Shown: one piece after another, positions 35,184 to 62,100 of the stretch | Numbering within the stretch: position 1 is the stretch's first letter | Layout of the letters: each line of letters begins with the position of its first letter | Origin: Chondrosia reniformis | Taxonomy: Eukaryota; Porifera; Demospongiae; Chondrillida; Chondrillidae | Assembly (NCBI GenBank): GCA_947172415.1 | Contig: OX359199.1 | Span: 4,304,001-4,368,000 of the forward strand | Length of the DNA: 64,000 nt | Direction of reading: 5' to 3' | Position numbers and translations under genes: made by a program | Notes under the pieces: generated by a model | What the model was told of the DNA's origin: nothing | Seen by the model: only the letters and a program-made list of their open reading frames with translations | The model's database searches: none

Positions 35184-38100
35184 ATGGGGAAGCAAGAGAA
35201 TATATTTCTTTTTATACCAAATATAATAGGTAAGTATGGTTAGAATTAAAATTTGGATATTACATATTTAAGTGATATACATTAAAATCTACGGTAAAAT
35301 ACATGATGGATGGTAATTAGATCATGAAGGAGGAAAAGGATTAAGAAAAGAAAAGGCCTAAATGTCCATATGCAATAAAATACTAGATGATATAATACAG
35401 GAAAACACAAACATTAAATAATTACACAGGAAAAAGTGATCTTTATAATACATGAATAATAATAATAATTTGGATTGTGAAATTCTTATTGTATATGACA
35501 TTGTAGTATTTACTCAATTTAAGTTGTTAACAAAATCATTGAAATTGGGTGCATTAACACAGTAAATGCAGAACATCTTTAATTTACCGGAAAGGTGGCC
35601 TTAAAGACACGTAAAGGTGTCTTTAAGGCGACTTTCCGGTATCCAGTAAAGGTCCTTAAAGGTAGAGCATCTTTCCATATTTAAGGTAAACTTATCCAAT
35701 GGAATGCTACACTTTCAGTGACCTTAAAGACACTTTAAATGTACTTAAAGGTAATAGCGCCTTTACAGTTATGGAAAGGTATGCTTAAAGACCCTTCATA
35801 TTTTCTATATTCACTCATATATTGTGCCATAAAATAAATATACACTGTACAAAAATAATTAAACAAAACTAACAATTTAGGGGTTTAATAAAAGTAAAGT
35901 TCAGTTTCTCTTTATTTTCAAAATATGTAAAACTTTAAGCTTCAATCTGTGACCCTGGTAGCAGAGAGGAAAGATACCAATTAGGTACATATTAATTAAA
36001 TCAACATTACACGCACAGTTAAACTTACTTCTAAGCTTCGAATTCAATTAGCTGCAGCGAATAATCCTGACCAGAGAGGAAAGACACCAACTACATAATT
36101 AAATCAACATTGCACACACTGTCAGTACACTTACTTCAATCATAATCAGCTGCAGCTAATAATCCAGACCAGAGAGGAAAGACACCAATTACATAATTAA
36201 ATCAACATTGCACTCACAGTTAAACTTACTTCTAGGCTTCAATCAGTGAATAATCCTGTTACCAGAGAGGAAAGACACCAACTACATAATTTAATCAACA
36301 TTGCACTCACAGTTAAACTTACTTCTAGGCTTCAATCAGTGAATAATCCTGTTACCAGAGAGGAAAGACACCAACTACATAATTTAATCAACATTGCACT
36401 CACAGTTAAACTTGCTTCTAGGCTTTAATCAGTGAATAATCCTGTTACCAGAGAGGAAAGACACCAATTACATAATTAAATCAACATTGCACTCACAGTT
36501 AAACTTGCTTCTAGGCTTTAATCAGTGAATAATCCTGTTACCAGAGAGGAAAGACACCAACTACATAATTTAATCAACATTACACTCTCAGTTAAACTTA
36601 CTTCTAGGCTTCAATCAGTAAATAATCCTGATAATAAATCAACATTGCACACACACTTCAAAGCTTTGGCAAATATACCCTAACTATAGCTATAGAGAGG
36701 AGAGTGTTTAAATAATCATGTAATCAACATCAAAAAAACTTATCATCACATAGAAACACTTTTCTGAAATATTATTAATAGAATTTTCAAATAGTAGGCT
36801 TACAAAGAGTGCATGTGCCTCAATACTTACATTGTAGAATTCACCGTCACTATTTTGATGCATTTCCAATTTGAAATAAATAAACCAATCAATGAAGAGA
36901 TTACATCATAGTTCATAAAATGGCTACCAATTAAATACCAAAAGTAAGTTACTATATAGCTGGAATGCTTACCGCCCTATGTTGTATGGTATGCCCCTAT
37001 ATTTCAATTTAAAGGGCCCTTAGGCACCCCATAAACGTGATACACTATATAAATCCACCATTAGAAGCAGCAACAGTAAAATGGTAAATATAAACTGAGA
37101 CTTAGTAAATTTCTAGTCAGATTAGCTATTAAAAGTTCTCTCAATTAGTATGTTCTTTATTCTACTGCATGTCTTGGTGTGCTTTGTGATACTGGTGCTT
37201 CCTTTCCATTTACAGATACATCACTTATATCATTGTTGTCCCTTGAAGTTCCTTCTGGCACTGCATTTATGGCCCATTTAAACTTGCCATAGTCAGCTGG
37301 CTTTCTTCTGCTGGACACCTGTGATTTATCTCTAACTCTTAAAATTTTTAACTGTTTTGCCCTCTTTGTTTCCAGTACTTTTCCCTCCTATATAAGTTGT
37401 CATTATATAAAAATGAAACATGTGATCCATATTGTTGAACATTGTAGCTGCATGAATGTGCATGTGGGTGCTTGAATGAATGCAGAATTGCACCATCATG
37501 CATTATTATACCCGTATACAAATCAAAGCTCTTCAAACCAAGCCAAAAATAAAGGCTGTACATGTGTATGCATTAGTGACAATAAAATTTTCATACTAGA
37601 AACTTGACAAATAATTATATAAGGGTCAATAAATTTTGTACAGACACCATATATACCTCATCAAGCAATTTTTTTACTGAAGTAATTCGCTTTCTTTCCC
37701 ATGGCAGGTGCTGTATATTAAAGACCCTTCTTCCCTCTTCATCTTCGTCACTGTGTTCGCTGGAGTGAACTTCAGGTTTCTGTAGTAGCTTCTTCAGTTC
37801 AGATTTTACTTTTGGGTCCCACTCTGTATATTCCAAAATATCCAATCTTCTTTGCATTTTCTGTATGAATATATAATAGAGTATATAGGTATTACATTAA
37901 ATGCAAAAAGCCTCGATCGCTGAAGGCTAAATATATACACAATATTTAGCTAATATAGCTGATATTCAATACAATTACAGCCACTGATATCGATCATAAA
38001 TTAGTTGAAATTTATCTTAGTATTTGGCAAGATAGCATTGTTAATTGTTTCATGATTATTTGCCCACGTGAAGAAAGTGAATTGAGATGTCGATAACAAA

Positions 38101-41100
38101 AGTGAATCGATTTAACACCTTGAGGTGTCTGCAATCATGTACACAAGTGGGTCAAGGTCCCCAAACACACTGGAATATATATATGGTGCTCAATTCAGCC
38201 GTATACAGTGCATATTTTGTATATAATATTGATATCTTATATACATACCTTCCATATCAGAGGATGTATATTTGTCTCCATAAAGCTCATTCATTTCCTG
38301 TATCACGCTTTCACAGATTTTTTGATTATATTCAGATGAAAAACTATATATTTTGTAGATATGATGACTATTTAATTAGCATGATTGGCATATTATGCTA
38401 TATATGTATACTTTTCATCTGGGTTCCATTTTTTTCCAAGAGATTTGGCTTGAAGATTATATACTGCCCTTATACTAGTCTGCAATTAAGTGATAACATT
38501 ATATATATAATACATATATGTACATCTAAATCATGAACTAGAACTTTTGCTCATGTACTCACTGAACAATGCTTATTGGTAATTTTGATCTTCTTGCCTT
38601 TTTTGTGTATGCGTCTACTAGGTGTAGATTGATTATGATCCTTGCGCTCTTCTGCATTGAAATTCTTTCTTAATTTAATCACTTCCTTCTTTATTGTTTT
38701 CACCTCTTGCTTAAGATCTGCCACAGCTTCTTGAATGCTCAATAGGTGAGTAATGATAATGTCATCATTTGCTTCCCCTTGCAGGATAATTGCTTCCTCC
38801 TTTAGAGTGAGCATACTGATTTCATCCTCACCTTCAGAATGATGTGATGACTCTGACTCGCTACAGGTAGAGCTGTATTCATGGTACAAATCACTACTGC
38901 AGTCACATTCATAGTCAGAATCATCACTTGAGCAATAAAAATGGACTGGTACTGTAGGTTTGGTAACATGTGGTGTAGGTAGGCTTAGTTCGACACATGC
39001 AGCTTCAGGTGTTGAGCTTGGACCAGCATCATCAATACAGATTGCATGATTTGGTGAAGTGCTTCCTTCCCTGAATAGATCGTCACTATTCATTTTCCAG
39101 CGACTGCATATATATAATGACTAGCAATAATTGAAGTACATAAATGGTATATGCTGAAAGTATAAGAATCAAATAGATCAGCTGCAGTTGCTGTCTATAT
39201 ATATGTATTGACAAAATAATGCAAAAAATACATACAAACTACCTCACCTATAGTGAATTCTGCACTTGGCTTAGTTGGTGGGTAAAGATTTCTTTCAAGA
39301 TATAAGCATGAAGGATTGCATAACAGAGCACATGGTTATAAAAATGGCTGTCAGTATATAGGAACAGAGTAAGTGCATTCATATATATCACTTAATATAT
39401 ACTTTCATATAGTGTTTGTGTTTAAAATTAATGCAGTGTGGCATGCATATGGAAGAAAACAAACCTGTGCCTTGCCTTTGTAAAAAGTGTAAAGGAGCAT
39501 TAGTATCAAGATGGACTAAAACTAGACATGGTAAAATTTGCTCTCCTCTCACTAGTACTTCAGAACTAGGGTATTCAGTAAATCAAAAACCTGAACTGAA
39601 CCTCTTTGATGAGAACTCCAGTGATGATGAAACTGTGCCGTTAAAGCTAGCAAGGACAGATGTATGTATATAGCTATTATGTATCATGCAGAGCATATAT
39701 ATATGTAGGAGCAAGCACGAACATTAATGAGTCATGTATATAAGGAGGGCTGCATCACTTCCACTCATGTTTTGGTATAAATTTAATTGTTAATTGTTAA
39801 TTAATCATTGGAGTATAAACTTTTCTCATATATAGATATCAACATCTGAATCATTAATATTGACAAAAGCAACTGTTACAGAAGATTTTGAATGCATGCC
39901 TCTGGAAGATAATTTGCAAGACCAGAATATGTCTAAATCAAAGGTATATATATATTATATATATACAGACTAAAATTAAAAAATATTAACTTTTAAATTG
40001 CCTGTCTTTCTTTCTTTTAAAGAGTGACCATTCTTTCTTGGAAGGCGTTCAATTGGGAGATGCTGTCGATATCAATGAATTATCTCATGAAGAATCTGAA
40101 ACTGAGGAAAACAGTAATTGTAGTAGTGATTCTGACTGGAATTCTGACATTACCACTGATCATGAGGATCACACTCAGTCTAGATCTGTCAACCCTATAG
40201 ACCTAGGCCTACAAGATAATGACAAAAATTCTGAACACAGTTCATGTGCAGACATTGCACAGGAAGAAAGCTTGGTAAAAAATATTCTAGACTTGGTTAA
40301 ACAGATATACCGATGGTCCATAGCTTATCGTATTGGTTATAATGCAACCACAGCCCTACTCAAGATATTGTGTGCCTTTTTCCTTCTTATTTTACCAAAA
40401 TCCACAACAGAAAAGCCTATTTTTCCTAAGAATGTTATGAAGTTGCAGAATGCAGTAGGATTTGATAAGGATTTGCAGTTTAACAAATTTATTGTTTGTC
40501 CCAATCCAGAATGTACTAAATTATTTGAATTTAGACAAATTTATCGAAATGAACATATTAATAAAGGAAAAACATCAGCTGAAATACTGCTACGTTCAAA
40601 GTTTTGCTATCTATGCAATGAGGCTATATTGAAGGAAAAAAGATAACCTGTGGGTATAATAAAATACACGCCACTGAAGCTGTACTGTTGCAGGAGTATT
40701 ATTTTAGCAGTAGAGTCATTATTGTCCAGAAATGATTCGAAAGACAAGTGGACTCAATGGGAAACTAGGGAGCTTCCAGATGTAGGATACCTGGGTGATA
40801 TATATGATGGCCAAGTCTGGAAAGAATTTAATTTGTTTCTGCCTCCAGTAAAAATCGCATAGGTTTGATATTAAACTGTGATTGGTTTAGACCATATAAG
40901 AGAAGAAATCAATCCATAGGTGTCCTTTATTGCAGTATAATGAATCTACCCCGAAATATACGGCAAAAACCTGAGAATGTCATTTTATTGGGCTTATTAC
41001 CAGCTTTAGCAAAGGAACCTACCTCATTGAACACTTTTCTCAAACCTATAATCGATGAGCTAAAACATTTTCAAAAGGGAATTGACCTATGCATAGGGGG

Positions 41101-44100
41101 CAAAACCGTGAAAACACAAGTATATATTTTATGTACCACATCTGATATTCCTGCTACTAGGAAACTATGTGGTTTCTTGGGACACTCTGCTCGATTAGGA
41201 TGTTCAAAATGTCTTAAGGAATTCTCCAGGCAAAGTTCAATTGGTAAAACAGATTATAGTGGTTTTCAAAGGTCAGCATGGCCTCTACGCTCTAACCAGC
41301 AACATCGACAAGCTGTAAGTAGTATACCATCTAACATAAGCAAAACAGCTAAGCAAAAGTTTGAGAGAAGGATTGGGTGTCGATATTCTGCATTATTGGA
41401 TTTATCTTACTTTGATCCTGTTAGATACCATGTTATTGACTTGATGCATAACATATTTGAAGGAACAGCAAAGAGAATGTTTCAATATTGGCTTGAAAAT
41501 AACATTATACAGCAATGCCATCTTAAAAATTTAGAGAAAAGAGTAGAAAATGTAAAAATAGTTGGGGGTATGGGAAGAGTGCCAGTAGGGATAACAACAA
41601 ATCATGGGAACCTTACAGCAGCAGAATGGAAAAACTGGACAGTAATCTATTCTCTCTATTGCCTCCAAGGCTTATTGCCTGAGATCCATCTAGCCTGTTG
41701 GCATTGTTTTGTTTTAGCCTGTAGGATATTAGTACAACCACTTCTATCTACAGCTGATGTAGTTAAAGCTGATGGGCTGTTGCTGGAGTTTTGCAAAAAA
41801 GCTGAAAACATCTATGGAAAGGCTTTTATTACACCTAATATGCATTTACATGGTCATCTAAAACAATGCATCCGAGACTATGGACCTCCTCAAGCCTATT
41901 GGTTATTTTCATTTGAGAGATATAATGGCATACTAGGTAGTTATACAAATGTAAACAAAAATCTTGAGGAGCAACTAATGGTAAAATTCCTTAGCATTTC
42001 CCATTCTGCTGCACTATGCTACACCACAAATCAAGTTGGTACAGCCTCAGAGCTTGATTTTACAATGTATTCCAACATGGACATGGATATAGAAAAAACA
42101 CGCATTGTCACTTCTGTTTTCCTATCTGCAGCAACTAAACCTGTTAATAGTATTAATTGGAGGCAGTGTCACCAAGAGATAGAACTGCCTCCAAAATTAA
42201 CAGAGAAGTCACAAAACATGGTATGCCTTGATTATGAGGATATGCATATTTTAGAGAGAAATTATTTAGCAATATTGCCTAATGAACTATCAATTCTTAA
42301 GGATACAGGAAACACTGTAAAAAAAGTGGTGTATATAACCACCAAAAAACAGTGACCACTATTTCCTCCAATATCTACCACCAAAATTCAGCTTTAGTGG
42401 TTATATACACCATTATTATTATCATTATACCTTCCTCCTGTATAAACACAAACCATCCTAATATGGACTTTAAAGCATGGGTTTGATAAAAGAAGAAGGT
42501 ATATTATCGTAGAGGTTCATTTGCTAGGTAATTTTAATACTCATACCGAGCTTCTGAGCTATAGCTTATCCTTAGCAAAAAATTCACAAAAATAATAAAA
42601 CGTTTCGGTCCGTGGACCTTCATGCATCAGCTATAAGTATAGGGTTCTAGAGGCCATTCATATCCGAAGATCAGACAATACCAATCTGGACTGTGGACTG
42701 ACTTAAGACTCTGTATGGCACCCATTCATTGAATGACTAGGCAACACTTCATTCACAACTATTCAAATCATGTCACTTCCCACCTTTAAAAATGAACTAT
42801 GGTTTCGTGTTATTTACTTATAGCTAATGAAGGTCCACGGACCGAAACGTTCTATTAATTTGTGAATTTTTTGCTAAGGATAAGCTCAGAAGCTCGGTAT
42901 TAGTAAGAAGGTATATATATGATTATAGTTACAAGACATACTCCAATTCCTGCAATTTTCTGTAAGAGTATATGAAGAAATTGTTAGTGGATTCCTATAG
43001 AGCTCAGCTGCAATTGCAAGTCAAAGAAAAAAACATTTAAGTGCATGGAACATCTACATCCACCTATATACGTAGCTATATATCATCAGCTTCCTGAATA
43101 GGTCATTGTTCCTCCCTATAACAACTGAATTTGAAACAATTAATGATGAGAAAGACTATACATATAATAGTCTCTGTTCATATATATACTTCAATGTTGA
43201 CTTGTTTAGTCAATATGGTTCAACTCATGAACATATACACACCTAAAAACTCATCTTAACATCCAAGCACATTCATGCATGCACAGATTCCCATATAGAG
43301 CTGTAAGTCAAAGAAAATAAACATTTAAGTGCAACATCTGCATGGCATACCTTATATCATCATGCATGCAGCTTCCATTGTTCCTCCCCAGCTAGTAGTC
43401 CATGCATCCAATAAAAAGTACAGATTTTGCTGACAAATTTGAAACAATGATATAAATGGGAATATATACATGTCGATGAGAAAGACTTACATAACAGTCT
43501 CTGATATATTCCAATGTTGACTTGTTCAGCTGCTTGCATCATCCTGCGCCCTGCATAAAAAGGTCAGTATGGTTCAACTGTCATCTAAAAATTCATCTTA
43601 CTCGCCCGCCCACATTCATGCATGCACAGATTCCCATATAGCTAGAGCTATAAGTCAAAGAAAAATAAACATTTAAGTGCAACATCTGCATGGCATACCT
43701 TATATCATCATGCATGCAGCTTCCATTGTTCCTCCCCAGCTAGTAGTCCATGCATCCAATAAAAAGTACAGATTTTGCTGACAAATTTGAAACAATGATA
43801 TGAATGGGAATATATATACATGTCGATGAGAAAGACTTACATAACAGTCTCTGATATATTCCAATGTTGACTTGTTCAGCTGCTTGCATCATCCTGCGCC
43901 CTGCATAAAAAGGTCAGTATGGTTCAACTGTCATCTAAAAATTCATCTTACTCGCCCGCCCACATTCATGCATGCACAGATTCCCATATAGCTAGAGCTA
44001 TAAGTCAAAGAAAAATAAACATTTCAGTGCAACATCTGCATGGCATACCTTATATCATCATGCATGCAGCTTCCATGCATTGTTCCTCCCCAGCTAGTAG

Positions 44101-47100
44101 TCCATGCATCCAATAAAAAGTACAGATTTTACTGACAAGTTTGAAACAACGATATGAATGGGAACATATACATGTCGATGAGAAAGACTTACATCAATGT
44201 TGACTTGTTCAGCTGCTTGCATCATCCTGCGCCCTGCATAAAAAGGTCAGTATGGTTCAAATGTCATCTAAAAATTCATCTTACTCGCCCGCCCACATTC
44301 ATGCATGCACATGCAGATTCCCATGCATATAGAGCTGCAAGTCAAAGAAAAATAAACATTTACACAGGTGAAACATCTGCATGGCATACCTTATATCATC
44401 ACACCTGCATAAAAGGTCAATATAGTTCAACTCATGAATCACACAGGAGCCATACAGACTGCATGGTGGATCTTATATAACTGCAATTCCAATAAGTGGA
44501 GTCCTGAAGACTGGCATGCATGACCAGCTATAAATTCTGTATTCCTCTAGGGACACTCAATGGAATTCATTTAAGTGGAGCCACACATACATAACACACC
44601 TTGCCTAGAACCCCCACCACACATGGAGCTAGCCATGCAGACTGGTGGTTTGTATAACTATACTTCTCTATATAAGGACAGTTAATTAAATTCATGGTCT
44701 ATGTTGTCCTTGTAGGGGATCCATCACTTCATATATAAACTTGCTATATATAGCTGAGACAGTATAAATTTGGGATATTTTATACTATAAGCATGCATGC
44801 TTATAGTATAAAACTTATATATTTACATGGCATGCCATGTAAATATATAAGTTGACTTAGTTATATGTCCTATATAGCTTGAGGTCATACTCTGGTATAA
44901 AAGGGTGTATCTATAGAAAGCATATATAAAGTTACATTCAAAACTGGTGAAATGGCACAGGCAAGCTTAACTACTATGAGTAGTGATCAAGTTAAACAAT
45001 GGCTCACTGAGATTGGCATTTCTATAGAAGTCGTTGATGCCCTGTTCTGTAAGTCAGGTTGTATAGCTGCAAGACACATTATACTTATAAAAATCACTTA
45101 TATAAAATTCATGTATATAGGTGAGGATGTGAATGGAACTGATTTGATGGAATTATTAGAAGATTCCAGCTCTGATGATTTTAACAGGATCTGTCCAAGA
45201 TTGAAGGACAGGTTGAAGTTGAGGAAAGCAGTGAAGGGAATTACAGAAGTATAAGCTATATATAATAGAGCAACAAAGGTCAAATAAAAATGTTTTGTAT
45301 ATATGTAGAAAGATAAAAATGCAGAGGATATTCAGTATAACTCAACAATAACAAAGGACCTGCAGGTACGTATATATAAAATTTGGAAAGGATATAAAAG
45401 GTTTCACCCAAAGGTTTCACAATATTATACATGCAGGATTCCTACGTAGTAGATGACACTACAATTGTAAGCTGCAAAAAGGAATTTAACCAAAAAGAAA
45501 AAGTACTGGAACAAAATAAAGTACAGAAGAAAACTCTGCACGCAAAATTTGACATACGTATATTCACATGCATGAAAACTGTATCTATATACTCTTTTAC
45601 AGGCAGTGATTGAGATAGATGAGGATGAGCCTTTGCCTAAACCTTTCCATTGTCAATTACCATTAGACTTGGAGTTGGAACTGAAATCAAACAATATAGT
45701 GTCCCTTAAAACAGTCAACAGAGTAGCTAAATTTGTAAGCCAGAAAATGTTTGGTTACTCTCGCAAAGTCAGCAAGGCAGACAGGGAAAGGGTGGCACAA
45801 GACATCCTCAATAAGTATCCCTTGCTAGGGAGCACAGTATGTATATATGCATGACGCAGGAATATAACACATACGAATTTCTCAGTTACAACTAGCTGTA
45901 TATGTGTTTTGAAGGAAACTATGTCACAAGCCATAAGGGCAAGATTCAAGGAACTAAATAGACGACCCAGAACAGGTATACTCAAAAAGAGCCCATTTCC
46001 AGATGTAAGTTTAAAGGATATACAATGCATGTTCTTTGTTGATATATATTTATTAAAATATTGTATACAGACCAAGAAACCAATTGTTAAGGCTGATGAT
46101 GATGAGGCCACTACTCCAACATTAAAGAAAAGAAAAATTGACAAAAGAGTACATATACATATATACTATGCACATGCTGAAATAGCATGCCATTAAACTT
46201 TGTAATTGGATATATACATGCAGGTGGAGATTACCTTTGCTGAGACAGCTGATGATGAAGCAGCTTTTTCAAGAATATGTAAGACTTTGCAAGATCAATT
46301 CAGGCTAAAGGAACAGAATAGAGCATTGATAAGTAAATGCATGTATATACGTACAGTTGCAACAGTGTTATTGCAAGTACGTACCAATATATTATACAAA
46401 GGTTCTTTGATGGTAAGAAGTTACATTTATAGAAGGAAGGATATTGAGAATAATCCTAGCCATGTGATTGGCATTATTAACAAATACCCCTTCTTAAGTG
46501 ATGCAGAAGAAGTTAGTGGATTGTTAACATTTCTATTACATGTGCATGTTATGTTCACCAGAATACATGCATATTTATGATGCAGTTTCTATTGGAGTTT
46601 GAACGCCTAGCCGGTCAAAAAGTCAATGTGGGACTTTTTTCTACAGAATATGCAGATAAAATTTTAGCAATGGCTAAAAAAGATCATTCTAAGAATATTC
46701 AATTGGTACTAGAAACATTTAATGACTTTGATAGCAAAACTAAAGGTACGTATATAAACATCTACAATTTGCCAACAATAGCATTTAATAGTACAATTAT
46801 GCCTCAACAGATGAAAACAAGGTTGTGGCTGCACTACAATGTCTTTGCTATCTGCTTTGCAATAAGGGAAGCCATGCAGATCCAAAGACTATTTGCCTGC
46901 AATATCCGGTATGCCATGTATGCACATGTACAAATTAAACTATATGTACATCAACATAATTGCTTTTATTAAACCATATATATACCTCTTATATACTTAC
47001 AGAGTTCCATTAACCCAACGGCATACTGTGAAGAACTTACTTTAAAGACACCAGTTTTTGTGTGGTCAGCTGAAGATGCTCATCTAGTGGTGGACTGTCA

Positions 47101-50100
47101 AATGCTGTTTGCTTGCAAAAAGCAGGATGCTGCACATACACTGTTAGCAGCGTATCATGTATTCAACATACAGTATCCCAAATCCCTTCATGGAGTGTTT
47201 TCGTTTCTGGAGACTTTGTATCTGGAAAAGACAAAAATAAATAAGACCAAACTTAGCAACAAAGTGAAGACTTTTATTGCAGTGTTATAAAGTTAAAATA
47301 CTATACCATTTTGAACAGAGACCATGCATAACATATAGTTTAAACTGCACGTTATTAGCATTTTCATGGTAATTGTAAGCAGGCATATTGTTGTATACAC
47401 AACACCTATAATTAAAGATACATATACTTACCATCTACTATATATAGATGCTTAAATAGTTACTACACACTGGTGACATAATATTTCTACTATATAAAGA
47501 ACATTTGTTGTTATATAAATGGGCACGCAGTTTTGCGCTAGGTGCATGCAGAGCTACATTGCCAGTAATAATGCCTACTAGTAGGTATAAGTGTCCACTT
47601 TGTAGTAATGGCTTTGTAAGATATTTATCAGTATTAAGTCACATAAAGAGAGATCATAGATTTGAACCATACTACATTAAATGTGGAATTGATGGATGTC
47701 CAGCAGGATATGCTAATGTAGAGGGTCTGCGCTCTCATATCCGCAGAAAACATAAACAAGAAAGCTTTGAAATTTCTACAGACCAAATTATGGATTCTTC
47801 TGATGGAATGGTAAGTACTGATGAAACTATGACTCATATGGCAACACCCAATGCAGATAGTCAGATGTCTGCAAAGGAAGCTACCAAAAAAGCATCTGCA
47901 AGATTCATTTTAAAGGCTAGAGAGGTTCATAGGCTACCACAGATGACCATTAATGAAATGATTAGGGATGTCAACCAACTGTATGGATATGTAATGCACC
48001 AGTATCAACAGGAAACTAGGACTGTGTTAGAAGCAGCTGGAGTAGATGTAAGTAGTTGTGACATCTATCAACAACTGGACAAGGAGGCACTACCTGACCC
48101 TTTCAAGGAATTGGAAACAGAGTATGCCCAAAAACAATACTTCAGGGAAGAATTTGGACTTATAGTATGTTTATAACTTTGACTACTTATACGCACGTAA
48201 TTTTATGATAACATATACATGCAGGAACCAACAGAGAGACGATTAGGACAAGTGATTGAAAGACTGCAAAATAGATTAATTTATAAATGGGAATGTGCCT
48301 ACGATATTGATTTCAAGAGTTCCCTCCAACAACTTTTAAACAATAAAAGAATATGGGAACAAGTATTAAGCACATATGAACCTATATATTATAGCTATAA
48401 GACATGTTGATTTACTTTACGTATGCAGATGACTGATCATGCAACACCCAATGGATTATTGCATGATATCTGTGATGGTCAGTACTATAAGGATCATTCC
48501 TTCTTCAGAGCCCACAGCAATGCATTGCAGGTTATGCTGTACTATGATGATGTGGAGATGTGCAATCCTCTAGGATCAAAAACCAAAAAAAACAAACTTG
48601 GTAGGTCTTGTCTTAAATTGCATCATTTCACAAGACTTAATTTAAACAATGTTATGATTTACAGCCATGTTTTACTTCAATCTTGCTAACATAAGGCCTG
48701 AGCTAAGGTCCAACCTAGCTACAATTCAGTTACTCACTATTGTGAAGAGCACATATCTCAACAAATATGGCATTGACAAAATTTTGGAACCATTTATTCA
48801 GGAAATAAACCAGCTAGAAAAGGTGACTCAGAAAAACAAAATGCATGCATATACAGTACCTTTTTGGGTAGGTTGTCCAGACCAGATGTTGCAACCGGCA
48901 ACTCGTGACTACCATTTGAACAAACATTCCTCCTCTAGAATAACGTCACCATGCAATTATAACATTTTTACTGATTACCAATTGCAACGCCCAGTCTGCG
49001 TGGACAACCACCCCAAAAGTACTGTATAAGTACATGTCCAAGCAAGGCAATACATGCATGCTACATGTAGTAACTGTACATATATACCATGAATGTCATG
49101 TATTGATATGTATGAATCTGTAGGGAATAGTTCTTAAAGTGCATGGTACACCTACAACTATATTTGGTACACTGGTTTGTGTCTCAGCTGACAATCTTGC
49201 AAGCCAGCTAATTGGAGGTTACAAGCAGCTAGCTTCAGCCACTAGAAAATGTAGATTTTGCATGGCAACAAAACAAGATGTACAAGAAAAGGTTAACATA
49301 TACGTATATATATATATATGCATATATATATCTTCAGTCTGAGATAATATTCTTAAGGCCTTTTCACACTGGCAAACTGAATGAGCATTAATCATGTTCA
49401 AACTTGCATTTTGTCAATGCGCATTTGACTAACACAAAAACAAAAAACACTGGCTACCGTCCTTTGCACAGTCTATCGACATTTATTGATAATCTATACA
49501 TATCAGAATACTGTTTATGGTCGAAGCCTCTAATTACCAGTTTGCTAGTGTGAACAGAGGTGCATGAATGCACCATTTGATACACATTTTGTCCGATGCG
49601 CATTCAAAGTGCATTCAAGATGCGTATTCATTTTGCTAGTGTGAAAAGGCCGTTAATTTTCAACGTGACCACTACATACATTTTCTACAGTTCAATGAAC
49701 ATCAAATTCTACCACGCACAAGGACCAACTATGATGAATATTGTAATTTATTGGAGATATGCACTGATACTAGATCATTGGAGGATATTGCCAAAACCTA
49801 TGGTATTACCCACAGGGCTGGATTAAATAAAATTCAACATTTCCATGTAAACGATGGACTACCTCCAGATATAATGCATGACTTGCTTGAAGGAGCAGTA
49901 CCATGTGAAATTAAGTGTCTACTAAAAAAATGCATCACAGAAGAACACTATTTTACTCTAATGTTCTTTAATGACAGGATGACATACTTTCAGTAAGTTC
50001 GTCAAAAGTACAACTGCATGTACTGTATAAATATACGTATATACATACATACGTAAGAGTAATATAATACATGCATGCTTGGTTAATGCAGATACAATGC

Positions 50101-53100
50101 AGCAGATCAAACAGCTAAGCCATCTTTAATTCTTACAAACACTCTAACAGGCAATGACAATCACCTAAAACAGTCTGGTAAGAAATATACAAATCATGTA
50201 CCAGTTTTCAGACATTTATTACAAATCACATGCATGTGAATTTGCATGCATGCATATGGTCTGCTATACAGCAGTATCTTTTAAGGACATGCTTATATCT
50301 ATACAGCCATGCAAACTTGGACCTTGGCAAGATATACACCTCTGATAATTGGAGACAAGATTCCTGAAGACTGCACATACTGGGAGACATTTTTAACTTT
50401 ATTGGACATCATGGACATTTGTTTTTCACCTTATGTTACCGAAGAGCAATTAACATATCTCACAGCATTAATTGAGAGTCACCATCAAAGTTACAAAGAA
50501 TGCTATCCTGAAAAACAATTGATACCCAAACAGCACTACATGATACACTATCCAAAATGCATTAAAAGGTATATTAAAAATTTTATACAGTACATGTACT
50601 TTAATATAAAGACAGATATATACACATGTTTGCAAATTAATACATCCATATTTATGTATATGTGCAGATATGGCCCACTGGTATCCTTTTGGTGTATGCG
50701 ATATGAAGCAAAACATCAATATTTTAAGAGAATGACGAGTGCACTGAGAAACTATAAAAATCTGCCTAAAACACTTGCAAGAAGACATCAGCATTTAGTG
50801 TCCTATCAGCTTAGTAATCCAGAAAGATTTGGCAGGTTTCATGGAGATGATGCTGTGAACACAAGTAAAGGTTGGTCCTTAAAAGCTGTACATGCCATAG
50901 TGTATGGCTCAATCATGTACCTGATCATTAATACAGCCATACAAGTTGATTTAAGACAACATGAACATGCCAGTATTATTCAGACAGCTGTGGGCCAGGT
51001 TGGGACATTATACAGGTTAATGTCATACAAATCTGCACAAGAAATACTTGCAAATTAACAGGATCACTTTTTAGATTACCATAACTATATATTAGTTTTT
51101 ATAGTCAACTCTCTGGTGCATTTATACTATATATATATAGGCACCCTTTTAGTACATTTTCCTCTATTTTTAGGGGCTGCCACAGGCAGCCCCTTATATT
51201 GTTTTCATTTGCCGATTACGTTGTATGGCTTCATGTTACGGAAAGATATATATATATATATATATCTATATATATAATACGGGTTGATACGCAACTATTA
51301 TAACACTTTATTTATACGTCGCTATATAATTAATACAGGTTCATATATACGCAACTATTATAATACTTTATAATACTTAATTTATACATCAATACATCGA
51401 TTTTGCAAATGGCGGCGTTCAGGAAGCTTTAGTTAACGAAGCTTTTCCATCGTTATTTATAAAGTTCAGGACACTTAAGCGTTCTCAATCGTTAGTATTA
51501 CGAATATATATATTAAATCCCAACGATGCGGCCAAGTAGTTCGAGTTAATTCGGGGGGCGGCAGCCCCACGAGTTTTTAAACTCGAACTACTTGTTTAAA
51601 TTAAATGTATACATAAATAATACATCTAATACACCTTCATCTTATGTCCCATTAACACAACACTCCCATGTCATCCCATACTCTGGTGATTGGAAAACCT
51701 CTAATAAATGTACCTTTGTGTGCAAGTGTTAATAGGGGCCTGCCTTATTCTAATTCTATTAACACTGCATAGTGAGTGCAATATTTATTGTTTTGAAGTC
51801 ACTGCAACTATGGCAACAATTGGTAGCCAGACAGTTGGGAATGTATAATTGTGTAAACTTACAAGAAATAGAGTATGGGGTGCCAAACGTGTCAAAATGT
51901 AGCATTCTCTCTGTTAGGGATATCAGGCTCTGATATGAAACATATCATGACCTGATATATATGCATACATATCATAAGCTGATATTAAAACATATCATAA
52001 GCTGATATGAAAACATATCATAAGCTGATATGAACTTCTTGGATGAACCCCTAATTAATTAATAATGCAATATCACTTGCTGCAATCACTCTGAGCATGC
52101 TCTGTACCACCTGCTTTGCTTTGCACATGTTGTGATAAAATGGCAGGCCGTCCTACTAAAGAGTTCCACTTAGAAGAAGTGAAGTACCTTTTGGCTTTTG
52201 ATTACAATTTGGAAGACATTGCTAATTTATTAAATGTAAGCAGATCAACACTCTATAGGCACATGAAGGATGCTCAACTGGAGAAGTATACTGATATTTC
52301 AGACCATGATCTTGATGAAACAATTAGAAGAATCAAACGTGACCACCCTAATGATGGTGAAGTTCTAATGCAGGCACATCTATTGAGAGTAGGATTACGC
52401 ATACAAAGACAAAGATTGCGACAATCCATACATCGTGTTGATCCCATAAATACTGCTTTGCGCCGTGCCAAAACAGTAAAAAGAAGGGTTTATCGGGTGG
52501 AAGGACCAAATATTGAACTCAAATCCTTCTTTGAGCACGCCGCGCCTTTTGTTAATCAACAAAGAACCTTTGTTAAGACGAAATAAGGCTTTGCAAAGCT
52601 GCTTACACTTCGTAAAAACAAAAACAAGTAGTTCGAGTTTAAAAACTCGTGGGGCTGCCGCCCCCGAATTAACTCGAACTACTTGGCCGCATCGTTGGGA
52701 TTTAATATATATATTCGTAATACTAACGATTGAGGATGCTTAAGTGTCCTGAACTTTATAAATAACGATGGAAAAGCTTCGTTAACTAAAGCTTCCTGAA
52801 CGCCGCCATTTGCAAAACGATGTATTGATGTATAAATTAAGTATTATAAAGTATTATAATAGTTGCGTATATATGAACCTGTATTAATTATATAGCGACG
52901 TATAAATAAAGTGTTATAATAGTTGCGTATCAACCCGTATTATATATATAGATATATATATATATATATATCTTTCCGTAACATGAAGCCATACAACGTA
53001 ATCGGCAAATGAAAACAATATAAGGGGCTGCCTGCGGCAGCCCCTAAAAAGGATTTTACTATCGATTTACATACGTACGAGTTCTTTTTGACCCCCAAAA

Positions 53101-56100
53101 TGGCCGCAATTTAAAATTCCACACTTACGCCTCCGCGTAGTGCACACTATCTATATAATATAGCTATGTTTTTTGTACTGACTTGTATGTTTGGTTTATT
53201 AGGTTACATGTCCATTTTGGTGAAAGGCAGATTTTTGATTAGTAAAATAGTGTTATCCTTTCACTTAGGCTGTCCTTGTTTGTCAGAGTATATATATATA
53301 TGTGTATATGAGTTTTACCGAAAACTGAAGTGCCATGTATATAGGAATTCCTTTACCTAACATGTAATGGATTGTTGTGTTAATAGGACATAAGATGAGA
53401 TGCAAGTGCCGCTCTTTAAGCTAAGCTTAACTTTAACTAAACAACAAGGTGTGTTTTATAGTTGGGTAAAATAATTTTATCTTTTCACTGGCTTTATGCC
53501 CTAATGCATTAGATTAGTTGTGGCAAGACTCATATCTTTGTGGTACATACATAGTGTGGTAACAGCCTTAGTAAATTAAGTTTACTTTTCAATATTTCTC
53601 ATTTTCAGATTGTGATTGTGAATGGTACAGGTTGTCTCTGTTTGCCAGTGTACATGTGTATGCTATAGTTTTGTGGAATAACAAGGTCAGTGACAGCTGG
53701 AATATATAGAATACTCTTTATGTTTATTCATACTTAACAATGCAAGGTACAATGTTTTTGTATTGTATGTTTGTATGGCACTGGATCATTACCTGTCCAT
53801 ATATATTGGTCATTGTGGTCCTTTTTGGGAAGACTATATAAGGAGTGGTGAGTTTGGGCCCTTGATGTAGTTTAAGCATATAGACTAACCATATATCTGA
53901 TATATGGTTAGTCTATGGTTTAAGTTGGGCAGGCTAGGGCAGGCCCTTCACACTTGGAGGTTTTCCACTTACTATTGTCACCTGAGTATGAATACAATTG
54001 ACCTTTTCCAGATTAGGGGTTCACCTGTATATCTATTTGTTCTGTGGAACTTTAGCCTTTAAAAGTCCCTAAAGGGATTGCTGAAGTTCTCCAGAGGAAA
54101 AAGATGTATGACATAAAACTGTCCAGGTTCAATAGCTAAATTACACTACTCCATGTATATGTGCAAACTCAGCCACTGAGCAAGAAATGAACAGCACAAA
54201 CAACTCAAAATTCAATTCATAGGTTTACACAATTAACATTCCAACCAGTCTGTTAGACACTCATGCCACTCCTTGTTGCCAGTACATATAGTCAGGTTGT
54301 CTCTCTGAAAGTTACAGAAGACCTTTAAACACAACAACTCAAAAAATCAATTCCTATATATACACAATTAACATTCCAACCCACTCATCCCACTCCTATA
54401 ACCCTAATTAAAACCCACTGTGTGTATTAGGTAATCTGGCCAATTGGAAAGACTTTTTGTCTAGTACCATGTAAACTTTGAACCAATAAATGGTACAGGT
54501 TGTCAGTGACAGCTGGATTTGATTTTATTGTTTTTACACATTCAAATCCAAATAAAAAAGGTTACAAATTTGTATAAGTATATATAACTTGTTCCCACTA
54601 TTAGAATTTAGTCAAAAAATGACTCCAATTTAGTAACTAAACTTTTCAGAGGTTTGTGGCAGAGATCACAATCAATTTGCTTGAAGTTGCAGTCTACATT
54701 GGGTCTACATGCACAGCCATTTTTACATTTGCACATCAACTGTTCAGCCCTATATATCTATAGACATATATCAGAATAGGTATACCTCTGATCCCTCCTA
54801 TGCTACCACTATACCATAAGGCTCTTTTGGAGTCTTCCACATTACAGCCATAAGTGAAAAGAGAAAATGATTTCACTTTGTAGCAACATGATCCTGACCT
54901 GAGCAGCTACTTGCATCATCCTCCCTATACCATAACTTATACACAATTAACATTCTCCACCAGGAGGTTAGACTTCCACACTCTTACTTGGTTGCCTTAG
55001 TTAATATAAATGAGCTCCATTTCATAGCCATCTTCAGTGTGGTGTACTACTATATAGTTATAAAGTTGTAGAAATAAGACACATAAATAGAGTTGCTGCG
55101 ACACACATGTGGATAAATGCATATAGTCATATACAGTTTGCATGTATACTATAGTCAGAGTATACGTGTATATGTGTGTAAGTGATGAGTTTTATCAAAA
55201 ACTGAAGTGCCATGTATATAGTATTTCCTTTACCTAACATTTAATGGATTGTTGCATGTGTTAATAGGACATAAGATGAGATGCAATTACTGCTCTTTAA
55301 CTTAAGCTAAGCTAAACTTTAACTAAACAAGGTGTGTTTTATTGTTAAGTAAAATATTTTTTTCTTTTCACTGGCTATATGCTCTAATGCTTTAGATTAG
55401 TTGTGGCAAGACTTAGTTCTTTGTGGTATACATACCTATATAGTGGTAACAGCCTTATATATTTACTTTCAATACTGACAATAAAGTAGCTTGTGATTTA
55501 TTGGACATGAATAGTCACACCACACCTGATACAGCCTTAATTATTCATAAGTAGCAGCCCACTTAGGATAGTAACTAAGACCATTACTGCAGTGTTAATA
55601 GAATTACAACATAGCAGGCTAGGGCAGGCCCTATAACACTTATATCCTCAGTGGGAATTTCCTACATTTGAAGGTTTTCCACTTGCCTTGTTCAGCAGTC
55701 AATAAACACTTTAGTGGTTTTATTTTACGGCCATGATGCACATCTTAACCCAGTGACTATACCTCTAGTTAGTAGTTAGATATGAAAAGACATTCTTTGT
55801 TCCACTAAACCATCTTAATCACGTGTTACAAAACGTCATCTCCCAATCAGAATGAAACATTCAATAAAGTGAATTTATAGTACAATAATAATGTAATGCA
55901 TGTCCAAAAAATAGTTTTCAAAGTGTCAACCTAATTTCTCTTCAGAATGTGAGTAATAAGAGCTGAAAGATATTTGCCATAGAAAAATGATATGTCCTTG
56001 AAAGTACTATATGATGAACTTTCATACCGAGTGAAATCATAAACAAACCCAGCATAACCTTTACTACTATCACGGGGCTCCACTTCAATAAAATGCCAAT

Positions 56101-59100
56101 CTCTTAGGTCAGTTACAAGTAAGACAACTCTATCCACTGCACTCTCAATGGTATCATCAATACAGTGATTAAGATAAGCTGCTCTCTTGGCATATTCTAT
56201 TCCCTGCCCTAAAGCATGATTTAATGCAGTTCTCTTCTCAAGTGAACCAGCAGCTTTTACTTCAACAACAACCTTAATTGGCAGGCCTAGCAAATTGGTT
56301 ATTGCTATAATGTGATCGACCTTTTGGGTTCTCTTCAACAAGGGGTACTGGTGTTTAAGTTGGTATAACTGTGAATTTTCCATAGTATTTGCTATATCCA
56401 CACCCATTCTCAACAGCATCGTTACAACTTTATCTATATAGTACTCTGAAGTTATTGTTTCTTTTTCTGGATTCCAGGGTGGCAACATGAAGGGTAGATT
56501 CAAGTCAATCAAATCTTCTTGAATAAGCTTCTGGTACATCCACAAGACCTGATCCGGAAGTATTGCTTCGTATAGTGATATATCAAACTCTGCAGTGAAA
56601 GATTTTTCATCATCTTCTGCCATTGCCTGCAAACATGCCTGATCCGAAGTTAGTAATGGAAAGTAACTTGCAGCTGTTACATTTTCCATGTGGGAAAACA
56701 TGAAGTTATCTGCAAAAGAAAAAATTAATTATGTGGACATGCATATAAATAACGGTACTGGTCTATATTAGTCTGATGAAATCAGACCTTATCCGTCATG
56801 CCGAAAGTAAAGAAGAGAGTTGCTCAACATCAAGTGGGCAATTAACGCTTAAAATTTAACACAAGATAACGCTTTCTTATTCCTTTAATAATTCAAGTTT
56901 AGAAGTACAGACGGGTTTAAAAATCCAGCTATGAAAAATAGACCTCTAACTCAACCTCTGTACCAAAATTCGTGTCGTTTTGATTTCGACACAGTAGCCC
57001 CTACTACCTTAACTTTAATCTATAGATGCCAACCATACGAATTCTTCCGTATTTTTACGGATTTATGATGTCCTGTATGGTAGTACGGACCTGAACGGTT
57101 ATTTACGAAAAACTAGCCATGTGAACAACTCCGCGTACACGTGAGAATCTGCAGAGGAAATATGGCGTCGTCTGATGGAGCGAATTATGGAACACCATCT
57201 CCAGTGCCTAAGGCTACCTCCACCACTACCTCTACAGACACTCACACAAGTTCTACTACTACCGAAGATTCAAATCGATTAGAAAACAGCAATGCAACTC
57301 TGCCCATGACTAATATTTTTGTGTTTAATTCATTCCTTTAAGAAACAAATTACATGGTTTATGTACGTAATATTATACTGAAGATATTCAATTTATACTG
57401 ATTTCCCTTAGTGTTCATACTGATGGGTGCTTTAATGGGTTGGCGGCTCTGTTAATCTATGGTTTGCCCCTTTGAATAAGCAATTGATTTTCTACTCTAA
57501 TGTATATAAACTGGACTGACCACGACATTTATACCAATCAGAAAATTTCTCTTGTGTGGTTTTGGTTCGCTCCCTCACTCCTTCATTTAGTTCAGATATA
57601 ATTTTCTTTATTTCTTTAAATTTCTCTCTCGTTTGTTCTATACAATGAAGACGTAAACACAGCAATAATTCCTCATTTACATTGGTGAACTCTCTTATCC
57701 GTAATACATTGAATAGAGCAGCCGTGTTTTGTTTTTCGGCTACTAAAAATGCGGCCTTAAAACACGGGAAAACACAAACCTAGAATCCTCTTTTGCTTTT
57801 CAGCTGGCTCATCTTCAATGATTAGCTCCGCTTGAGGGACCTTATAGTTGCCAAAACCCCTAATGGTAAGCCTAGATCCTTCAGAATTTGTTGGTACATT
57901 TAGCCTGGTAGGCCTAGTCCTCCATACATAGGCAAACCGTATCATCCTTGTCAACATTATATCTTCCTAACTCTACACAAAAAGAGACCACAACTCGGTA
58001 TAGAATAGAAAATCAAAGTAGTAAGAAGAGTTTTAGTTTGAAGGACAAAAGTAAACCAAAGCTCGACTCTCAAGGTTAAATCATAAATAATAGTTACGTC
58101 ATGCTCGCGGAAGGAAGAGTCATATACCGGAATGGAAAACGCATGGAAACACCCGCCTTATAATACACGCTCACTAATCTCCCCGCACACGAACTACTTC
58201 GCCGCTTTGTTGCATGGGCTTATATTTAGTTGTAATCTTAACGATTCTGGATGTTAAGTGTCCTCAAAATTAAAACGAACGATAGTGAAGCTTAAGTTTC
58301 TCGAATGCCGCCATTTGCAAATTAGCAATAACAACCGGAAGGGATGACACATTAACAGTGATGTTGAGTAGGAATTCCTAACATTATGGGGAAAACGAAA
58401 CAACCCGTACCATCCCTACATAGAGAGTACTACCGTACTCTCTGATAATGTACAGACATTGAGTCTTGATTAGTGCAAGGTTGTTTTGAAGCCAGCACAA
58501 CTATATGGCAACAAGGAGTGGGATGAGTGTTTAACAGACTGGTTGGAATGTTAATTGTGTAAACCTAGTGTTATTGATTACTCATGCAGTGGTTGAGTTT
58601 GTGTTCATATCTTAAAGATTGTTTTTCAGTGATATATGTATACTCATTGGAAGTTGTATAATGAAAGTACATAAACTATAGTATTGAAAGCCACTACAAC
58701 TGAGTAAAATGAAACCATCAAAGTGTTTATTGACTACCACATGCAACTGAAAACTCTGGCTCATTCTCATGAAGTTGTATTTATTACATTCACCACATCT
58801 TTTTCCTCTGGAGAACTTAAGCAATCCCATTATGGACTTTTAAAAGGCTTTAGTTCCACAAAATGAAATAGATCTAGGTGTGCCACAAATCTGCCTTTCA
58901 ACTTTGTAAGTTGACCATTGAGAAGGAACTAAACCTCCAAATGTAGTGTTAAAGGGCCTGCCCTAGCCTGCCTTACACTATATAATCATTAACTTTGTAA
59001 GTATATAGTCTCCCTGGGGACTCCTCAACTAGTTGGATCAATATGGACCTGTAATCTAATGAACCAGTGCTATACAAACATATACAATAAGCCAGTCCAA

Positions 59101-62100
59101 AAACATTGCACCTTATTGTTAAGTATGAATATGCACCTGTACTCTGACACAGGACAACCTTTATCATCCATGTACTACAAGGTAAATGACCTTATTATTC
59201 AGTAAAACTCGCATACACACATACGCTGGCAATAAAGACAACCAGTACCATTCACAATCCCTAGCTGAGCGTGAGAAAACCTTTTCAGTATTGAAAAGTA
59301 ATAAGGCTCATTACCATGAACTTTGAAGTCTTCCCATATGTAATCTAATCACATTAGAGCCTAAAGTGAAAAGATGAAATTATTTTACCTAACTAAGCAC
59401 AACAATGAAATGTTGTTTCACCAAGTTGGTTGTATCATCTTATGACCAACTAACACAACACTCCATTACATGTTAAGTAAAGGAATTCCTACATGGCACT
59501 CCAAAGTTTTCAGTAATATACACACATACACATATACTCTGACACACACACTTGACAAGGACACCAATTAGCCAAAATACAATATAAGTATTGAGGGTGA
59601 TTCTAATGGCCTAAGAAGGAGTTATGGTCAAATATAAGCATTACATGTCATTACAAATAAAGCGTTATGCTCCTCAGTCTTTTTCGCTTCAGTTAAAGGC
59701 GATGTAACTGTAACTTACTTTCGCTGATCGGCCATCTTGAACTAAACGTCACACGTAAATTGATATGTATACGTGTGAATGATGTGTATTATTGGAGTGT
59801 TGTGTTAATATGATGCATGGATTAAACGGGGTGGCTATTTTTACCTTCAAAAGTTGCCCTAAACTTACCATGGGGTGAAAGTTGAAATTCCTAACTTATG
59901 GCACTTAAAAAACTAAAAGCGAATTTCGCCTTCCACGACATGGAAAACTATATAATGTGTGTGTTCGTTGCATGTATGATGTCTTTGGCTATTAGACTTA
60001 AAGCTCCTAAGTCGACATATTCGTGTCTATAATTGAAGTGTACTAATAAGCGCCAAAACGCTGGTAGCCAGCGATGCAAGGTTAATATATATACTAAGCG
60101 TTCTAGAAAGATTGCTCTTTCTTTCTATATACAGTGCAAGTTACAATATACTAAGGTAATCTAAATAATGTAATTAAATAATTCATATGGCTCCAAGAAA
60201 GGATCTATAGAAACAAAATTGGCATAGCATTATAATATATATATATATACATATAGCCATACAAAGTGGAACCATACAAAGTGTCATGAACTGCCATGCA
60301 CACGCAGGACCTGCATACACGCCCCGAGCAATAATAAGGTTTTATTGACTGCATGTATATATCATGTCTGCTTTGGGTAACTTTTTTCTTAGTTTTTTTA
60401 TCTCTTGAGAATGGAGTGTACCATGCATTGATACCCCATATAACTGCATGTTTGCATGCGTGACATATTGCATGACGTTTGGTTGAACTGTTGGTAATAC
60501 CCATCACTATAGTGCTTTTTTGGTGGTTAACTTTGGCAAAATGATGGTAATGGCCACCAAAATATTTTCCACCACGGTGGATATTAGGATTGTGGCTATT
60601 ACCACCATATTTGGTGTAAATAGCCACCACCTTTTTTACAGTGAAACATTACCTTCCATCACTATGCTTTAAGTTTAAGTCCATTAAAATAGCATCACAG
60701 GTATTTGGGTCGTTTTCTCAATATCCAGACAGGTCGTTCATACTTGCTTCATGGGCCAATGAAGATGGAACCATTAATGTAACGAGTTATAATTTGAGAG
60801 CAGGGCAAATACAGCATTTCTTAAAACATTCTTTCAGGCTAAAAGATATGTCAACAAAAGTGGAGAAGATATTTGCTGTTGTATCATGGTTCAAAGAGGT
60901 TTCAACTATTGAAACAGAATTCCCCTTCAAAAGGCCATTAATAAATATAAGGAAAATTAATACCATTCCTCCAGGACCAGCAACATTCATGCCTGTTGAA
61001 AGGATATTTTGCAACATTGCAACTGCCAAAAACTTCATAAGACCAGCTTCTCATTCAGAAGTTGGTATTCCACTAGGACAGAAACACTGCATTTAAAATA
61101 ACCTAATTTCTACTGAAACACTATTCTTAATTCATATATAGTTTATAATTCCATGCACTAATCATAATAATAATGATGCTCCATTGCCCATGCAGTTCTC
61201 TTATTATATATATAATTGCTTCAATTGATGTTTAAGAAATGTATTGGAAGTCATTAAAATTTTGACTTCTCGTGACCCTTATATAAATTACATGTACATG
61301 TTGTGCCTTTGTATATATCAAAGCGATAGCAAATGATGCATTATCAATCTATATATGTATAGCATTTGATAATGTACACACATATTCATGGATTGGAGTG
61401 TTCTAATAATAGCAGCAATTAGCTGGATGATCCAATCCTTAAAGATGTTGATAAGTTGCTTAAAGATCTGAAAGATAATCTTTCCTGCATGTCTTTAATC
61501 TAACTTAAAGATTATAAAGATACCTTTACTGTCTTCAATCTAACTTAAAGATTGTAAAGATAACTTTACTGTCTTTAAATTTACTTAAACACAGTAAAGA
61601 TTATCTTTAAGGATTTCTTTAAGCATCTTTACAGCCTTAAAGATGATATTCATTTACAGTGTTAATATAGGAATAGCCTTAATTTTGGGCACTTTTACAT
61701 ATAGCATATAATAGCCCCAAAATTGCAGGCTATGGCATGCAAAAGCCCAATTGAAAATATGGGTGTATAGAAGTGTCGTGTTCATGGTGTAGGTGACCAG
61801 CAGAGAAACCTGTATAGCAGCTATAGATTAATTTATAACTTGGTCGGTGCCGTTACTCTATGTATATATAACTATGTGTCTCAACCCACAGTCTTTATAA
61901 GCTGACTATAATATATTAATTACTTTGATATAAATTTTATTTACTTGTCTTGAAGGGTACGTTCGTATTGCGTGCTCAATTGGGTCCTGCTTTTTTATGC
62001 CATCTGCTCCATACAAAGCAGCTGTACTTTTCATATTAAGCAATATTGTATTGGATGAAGTGGATGGAAAGACTGCAAGATATTTTAATCAGTGTAAGCC

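Follow-up and report, generated by a model that had tools for sequence, protein, structure and literature searches.

Two nested CACTA-like transposons, the inner one with a nuclease-like passenger frame, in the first intron of a CDIPT-like gene of the sponge Chondrosia reniformis

How did a gene of the sponge Chondrosia reniformis come to have a first intron of nearly 27 kb, almost all of it enclosed by transposon termini? The window considered here is a stretch of 64,000 nucleotides (C11:4304001-4368000, contig OX359199.1) that contains a gene resembling CDIPT, the gene for phosphatidylinositol synthase. It was compared with the whole genome (117 Mb, 15 contigs). An initial annotation had described the content of the intron as one composite transposon of 26.1 kb with cargo, inserted in an essential gene. 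The comparisons point to two serial transpositions, first of a CACTA-like element (element A) into intron 1 of the CDIPT-like gene and then of a second element (element B) into element A, and this history is considered highly probable. The features of the locus are collected in Table 1.

The two exons that the initial annotation had placed some 26.7 kb apart are present and join in frame to read MGKQENIFLFIPNIIG-YVRIACSIGSCFFMP...DEVDGKTARYFNQ. Exons 1 and 2 and the exon at 63711-63797 were placed by alignment with human CDIPT and the remaining exons by eye. Of the intron, 26,104 bp (97.7%) are situated between a terminus at 35558, CACAGTAAATG, and its partner CATTTACAGTG, which ends at 61661. 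The 622 bp outside agree with the normal intron of 0.62 kb that had been expected once this segment is removed. Each terminus is the only match to the pattern CAC[AT]GTAAATG on its strand within 64 kb, and TTAA is found beside both. The subterminal repeats of about 230 bp were also borne out, with 10 CTTTA/TAAAG words in the left 230-bp end and 15 in the right, compared to a window mean of 0.79 per 230 bp. Repeats of this kind are typical of EnSpm/CACTA elements.

A search of the genome with a 301-bp left-end probe gave 22 matches. At nine places outside the window, a match of 92-99% identity starts within 5 bp of the position equivalent to 35558 and continues to the probe's far end; a weak match on C13 (85% over 73 bp) begins 14 bp further out and speaks against so sharp a boundary. 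The right-end probe gave 29 matches, 12 of which, at other places, terminate within 3 bp of 61661. All seven left ends that were read outside C11 and C1 start with CACTG. Two complete copies of A are located on C1, at 4880314-4888286 (7,973 bp) and 7345126-7353149 (8,024 bp), and six shorter relatives of 3.1-3.5 kb on C8, C7, C9 (two), C13 and C14. Among the nine copies for which both ends were read, a count that excludes one left and four right ends without partners, the target-site duplication is a clean 3 bp in five (TAT, TAG, GCC, ACA and TAT), 4 bp (TTAA) in the window and 2 bp on C14. The copy at C9:1903204-1906573 has no clean duplication, and that at C1:7345126 has one of 3 bp if its first base was lost.

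The outer termini might instead belong to two separate short elements that face each other by chance. Such an arrangement is consistent with the ends of A having in common a 25-bp inverted terminus (84% identity) and short words, with no long inverted repeat. Against it, the same left and right ends recur as an ordered pair, twice on C1 with a spacing of about 8 kb and at six more places with one of about 3.1-3.5 kb. At those six, the duplication is a clean 3 bp in four, 2 bp in one and absent in one. A chance pairing is therefore scarcely credible; the termini at 35558 and 61661 are true element ends and form a single CACTA-like pair, as the initial annotation had held.

The transposase of A is best read in the C1:7345126 copy, where it is a single open frame of 922 codons that scores 37.9 bits against the Pfam family PF02992 (cut-off 28.6). 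The piece in the window scores 28.1 bits, just under the cut-off, and differs from the C1 frame by one stop and one frameshift besides being split by B. The C-x2-C and H-x3-H motifs are located at fitting places in the C1 frame, with three matches per pattern in the protein. By its ends, its duplication and its transposase, A is an EnSpm/CACTA transposon.

The C1 copies also reveal what was inserted into A. Both pass directly from the equivalent of window base 42312 to 60646, and neither contains 42313-60643. Their two main aligned pieces (7,719 of 7,771 bp) are 98.8-99.7% identical to A in the window, with a value of about 95% in the last 0.2 kb. A stretch of 191 bp is present in both C1 copies and missing from the window copy at 38216/38217. 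In the C1:7345126 copy, the uninterrupted site reads GGATACAGGAAAACATTACC and it is this sequence that B splits in the window. B begins with CACTG, has inverted ends of its own (CACTGTAAAAAA) and is flanked by a duplication of AA, as three A residues stand on either side of B and four at the uninterrupted site. A duplication of 9 bp was considered and rejected; the overlap is a chance likeness of the B end TACAGTGAA to the target TACAGGAAA, and the true duplication is 2 bp. A probe for the A/B junction matched 14 other places in the genome, none of which cross it; ten have the A side only and four the B side only. The segment is a separate CACTA-like element nested in A.

These data bear directly on the proposal that the 26.1 kb form a single giant CACTA-like element, mobile as a unit with its cargo. 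In support of that proposal, the outer termini do pair up and everything lies between them. On the other side, the complete copies of A are only about 8 kb in length, the junction recurs at none of the 14 other places matched by the probe, B has its own ends and relatives that occur without A, and the transposase frame of A is interrupted by B. A giant unit is thus very improbable. Nor does the term composite transposon apply in the sense of two element copies around a cargo, since the outer termini bound a single element and the junction probe showed no second copy of the unit; no other full-length copy that joins these termini to this cargo was found in this genome. Repeats of this type can also mislead assemblers, and the locus could in principle be an artefact that joins unrelated repeats. 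The 2-bp duplication and the uninterrupted comparator site at the inner junction, together with TTAA on both sides of the outer junction and flanking exons that are in phase, make an artefact a most doubtful explanation.

The intron thus holds two insertions, B within A, each with its own ends and a short duplication. In the preferred history of two serial transpositions, A, an EnSpm/CACTA element of about 7.8 kb, would have entered intron 1 of a diverged CDIPT-like gene. The intron would have been lengthened with exons and splice sites untouched, and splicing is probably still possible. B (18.3 kb including its present insertions) would then have entered the transposase frame of A and left a 2-bp duplication. 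Both movements would have been of the cut-and-paste type performed by DDE transposases. Since B sits in its transposase frame, the window copy of A is unable to make transposase and may at most be mobilised by transposase from other copies.

Several points weigh against this history. The order of events is an argument from parsimony: B could have entered A elsewhere, with the pair then moving once. A version of this locus without A was not seen in this genome. The 4-bp TTAA flank of A in the window is unlike the 3 bp of most A copies. For B, a Pfam scan gave no PF02992 match for its own transposase, and the right end of its C9 copy was not found.

Table 1. Coordinates of features in and around intron 1 of the CDIPT-like gene (positions of the window)
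Feature	Position	Strand	Remarks
Exon 1, CDIPT-like gene	35184..35229	+	phase 1, donor GTAAGT; intron position and phase match the C5 paralogue
Intron 1	35230..61955	+	26,726 bp
Left TTAA flank, 4-bp target-site duplication of A	35554..35557	.	
A, left part	35558..42312	+	terminus CACAGTAAATG, subterminal repeats, greater part of the transposase frame
Left subterminal repeats of A	35558..35787	.	10 CTTTA/TAAAG words
93-bp tandem repeat in A	36055..36630	.	6.2 copies
Second open frame of A, 189 aa	38554..39120	-	full-length match in both C1 copies, 99% and 93%
A transposase (Transposase_21), 5' part	39990..42312	+	stop, frameshift, B insertion
2-bp duplication AA at left edge of B	42311..42312	.	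second copy 60644-60645
Element B, 18,331 bp	42313..60643	+	inside the A transposase frame
B left inverted terminus	42313..42331	+	CACTGTAAAAAAAGTGGTG
350-bp tandem repeat in B	43268..44401	.	3.3 copies
Multi-exon gene of B, SAM-like start	44952..47287	+	pieces from 45576 onward kept in order in B2
B transposase gene	47571..51058	+	10 exons as modelled, 734 aa; C2H2 finger and DDE-type transposase, metazoan EnSpm kind
Element C, 1.9 kb, in B	51167..53050	+	inverted ends of ~430 bp (99%); helix-turn-helix (HTH) frame 52140-52586
Degraded inverted repeat around cargo, left arm	53308..54346	+	
Cargo frame, 256 aa, nuclease-like	55931..56701	-	D...ExK...QxxxY by eye; open too in B2 on C2, C7, C14
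Two small frames upstream of cargo frame	57495..57966	-	conserved in relatives
Degraded inverted repeat around cargo, right arm	58445..59494	-	
B right inverted terminus	60625..60643	-	reverse complement CACTGTAAAAAAGGTGGTG; B2 on C2 ends at equivalent base 2218960
A, right part	60646..61661	+	transposase frame remainder (to 61093), subterminal repeats, terminus
Right TTAA flank	61662..61665	.	
Exon 2, CDIPT-like gene	61956..62093	+	holds D-G-x2-A-R portion of the catalytic motif
Further CDIPT-like exons	62524..63797	+	TQFGAVFDVVIDR from 62524; 63029-63127; ~63310-63375; 63711-63797
Last CDIPT-like exon	64440-64574		past the window end

The transposase of B identifies its relatives. Among 4820 candidate proteins, 120 homologues were found at E <= 1e-3, the best of which is from Amphimedon queenslandica; those with species names come from sponge, soft coral, fishes, sea cucumbers, a limpet, a tunicate, insects and ticks. 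Precomputed domain assignments list PF02992 in five of the 120 and a SAM domain in one. Nineteen sequences were aligned, consisting of B and 18 of the homologues, four picked for their PF02992 tag and one for its SAM tag. PF02992 is detected at E <= 0.01 in eight of the 19, a set enriched by the four so picked. The motifs of the clade are well kept in the alignment, with D284 and D377 present in 19 sequences each, C397 in 18, C400 in 19, H616 in 18, and H620 and E640 in 17 each (gaps in 0-2). The C(2)C and H(3-4)H motifs of B fall between the second D and the last E. By its ends, duplication, homologues and these motifs, B is of the EnSpm kind.

Within the genome, a copy of B starts at approximately C9:3978407 and is 94-95% alike over the transposase region; its right end was not located by a pattern search over 9 kb. 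A sister element, B2, spans 2204831-2218960 on C2 (14,130 bp) with the same kind of ends as B and a duplication of CA. The CACTGNAA at its left end has no second occurrence within the 3.5 kb read there. Over the 3.7 kb compared, identity among the B2 copies on C2, C14 and C7 is 99.95-99.97%; between those on C2 and C14 it is 99.97% over 3.9 kb, a stretch that overlaps the first by 0.9 kb. Because three copies on different contigs are so nearly identical, B2 appears to have transposed very recently. Between B and B2, the transposase has 0.23 nonsynonymous (dN) and 1.56 synonymous (dS) substitutions per site over 605 codons in seven conserved blocks, where a dS above 1 by the Nei-Gojobori (NG86) method is rough and the values by block range from 0.96 to 3.27 with one undefined. 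With dN far below dS, the transposase has been under purifying selection.

B also contains other insertions and genes. Element C has no flanking duplication that could be seen, its HTH frame resembles an integrase N-terminus, and parts of the element are also found within the C9 copy of B. The SAM-domain gene of the initial annotation could not be confirmed, as the SAM_3 family in Pfam matches it with E 0.02, below the cut-off.

The most unusual component of B is the cargo frame. Its D...ExK...QxxxY pattern looks by eye like that of PD-(D/E)XK nucleases, and the putative core, VDHIIAITNLLGLPIKVVVEVK and QGIEYA, is similar in B2. No convincing match was identified in Pfam, PADLOC or the sequences of the PDB, where the two weak matches are designed proteins (E 0.72 and 2.6). 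Of 350 candidates drawn from 5.8 billion proteins, none reached E <= 0.01. A fold calculated from the single sequence had a mean predicted local distance difference test score (pLDDT) of 34.3 and was unusable. A Crinkler-type nuclease is offered as an idea only.

In the genome, the cargo frame has ten other matches at eight places. It is open over 254 residues in B2 on C2, C7 and C14 (55-56% identity) and, at 39% identity, for some 235 residues at C4:5320955 and at C10:3674233; at C13:3659030 (39%) it has one stop. Remnants consist of three pieces at C9:2062796-2063562 and a fragment at C7:5675637. None of the 118 B-type transposase matches listed is near the frames on C4, C10 and C13, the neighbourhoods of which were left unread. 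When neutral drift was simulated to the observed divergence, with substitutions only and every change equally likely, both frames remained open in 0 of 1000 runs. Between B and B2, the core is 66% identical compared to 40% for the first part. The open frames and the better-kept core suggest that the frame is constrained, whereas its dN/dS of 1.0 (dN 0.30, dS 0.29, 249 codons) would, taken alone, fit no constraint. Amino acid change in the cargo seems to keep pace with silent change while the frame stays open.

Near the cargo frame, the small mitochondrial-type gene of the initial annotation was not confirmed. Two small frames at 57.5-58.0 kb are conserved in relatives and are perhaps the first exons of the cargo frame; the two stretches scanned against Pfam gave no match over a cut-off. 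A repeat of about 220 bp (56791-57013) adjoins the gene and has at least 17 other copies at 91-95% identity among the 40 scored of 2832 candidates. The possibility that the cargo block is a transposon of its own was set aside, as neither clean termini nor a duplication could be seen near 53.3-59.5 kb in the repeat and comparison tables, although no dedicated search was made.

The cargo and the transposase of the same two elements differ greatly in synonymous divergence. Because dS is 0.29 for the nuclease frame and 1.56 for the transposase, the block is inverted in orientation between B and B2, and the C9 copy of B has no nuclease match over the 21 kb read, the cargo block was likely exchanged between transposon lineages. 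It would have passed between the B and B2 lineages through recombination or capture. Identity at fourfold sites agrees with this, being 0.75 for the nuclease (0.62-0.87, 52 sites) and 0.53 for the transposase (0.43-0.61, 128 sites), with bootstrap intervals that barely separate.

Gene conversion would have the appearance of such an exchange. The cargo may be an old, unexchanged part of B elements with silent sites that seem young due to selection or gene conversion. Conversion also lowers dS, and B and B2 are 84-97% alike in the non-coding sequence at 53.15-54.35 kb, so that conversion may extend to the entire region. Conversely, the C9 copy lacks the nuclease frame in the stretch read, with a transposase region that is 94-95% alike and a right end that was not located; the block has opposite orientations in B and B2; and conversion would itself count as exchange. 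An old and unexchanged cargo is considered unlikely, at perhaps one chance in a few. The case for exchange is tempered by the near-overlap of the fourfold intervals, by the roughness of the transposase dS and by a comparison that amounts to one lineage pair, given the near-identity of the three B2 copies.

The gene that hosts the insertions was also reconsidered. The CDP-alcohol phosphotransferase motif was read by eye as DGKTAR and GAVFDVVID across exons 2 and 3, in agreement with the D-G-x2-A-R-x8-G-x3-D-x3-D motif of CDIPT. The gene has a strongly altered stretch where human CDIPT has HKMIDLSGNP. A second CDIPT-like gene at C5:6239328-6241686 is nearer to human CDIPT (E 2.7e-10 versus 0.0021 for the window gene; 55% versus 45% identity in the matching exon), and its intron 1 is 87 bp at the same position and phase. 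A search of the genome with PF01066 listed three other places and missed both CDIPT-like genes, because it takes exons one at a time. The host is a diverged CDIPT-like paralogue. Since the C5 gene, with its short intron 1, fits human CDIPT better and the window gene is not the sole CDIPT copy in the genome, the description of the host as an essential gene is not supported.

Elsewhere in the window, a 25-bp unit is repeated 104 times at 17633-20231 (97% match; GC content about 52% at 18-20 kb). Because 25 is not a multiple of three and the unit is free of stops in every phase, each of the forward frames reads as a 25-residue repeat, with open frames of 815, 755 and 732 aa. An open frame of 541 aa at 6433-8058 was labelled by eye as BTB-Kelch type.

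Nested transposons in introns are common. Among the literature matches listed, no title or abstract start concerned sponge CACTA elements or an animal intron with a nested pair like this one; nested CACTA elements of wheat are the subject of some of the papers. The nested CACTA-like pair is real and well resolved. Its kind is ordinary, and its passenger gene is unusual. Compared to CDIPT proper, the window gene retains the exon order, the position and phase of intron 1 and the catalytic motif, yet it is diverged; the better likeness to the human protein, and an intron 1 of 87 bp, belong to the C5 gene.

EnSpm/CACTA elements (CMC/CMCT clade) have target-site duplications of 3 bp, or 2-5 bp across the wider clade, and their DDE transposase contains the motifs C(2)C and H(3-4)H (PMC12730594). 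A and B resemble them in their CAC...GTG ends, duplications of 2-4 bp and C(2)C/H(3-4)H motifs, as does A in its PF02992 match. B differs in its extra nuclease-like gene and in its transposase, a diverged metazoan version that has a C2H2 finger and itself matches no Pfam transposase family. In fungi, TET/JBP genes carried by DNA transposons have passed from one transposon lineage to another (PMC12730594). The likeness is in a passenger gene found in different lineages and apparently passed passively. Unlike the fungal case as described there, the passenger here is nuclease-like, the genome is that of a sponge and both lineages are CACTA-like.

The main finding mostly explains how a 26-kb intron arose in two steps. 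The cargo could matter more, as a frame for which none of the 350 candidate proteins reached E <= 0.01, that is open in three recent B2 copies and has apparently been passed between lineages. It would serve the element rather than the host. It is tentatively proposed, as one possibility among others and not the favored expectation, that diverged lineages of animal CACTA-like transposons in this genome exchange a fast-evolving nuclease-like passenger gene and that the carrier may gain an edge, either by cutting rival elements or host DNA or by aiding repair after excision. Such passage would resemble that of TET/JBP genes among fungal transposons (PMC12730594) and would be testable across related genomes.

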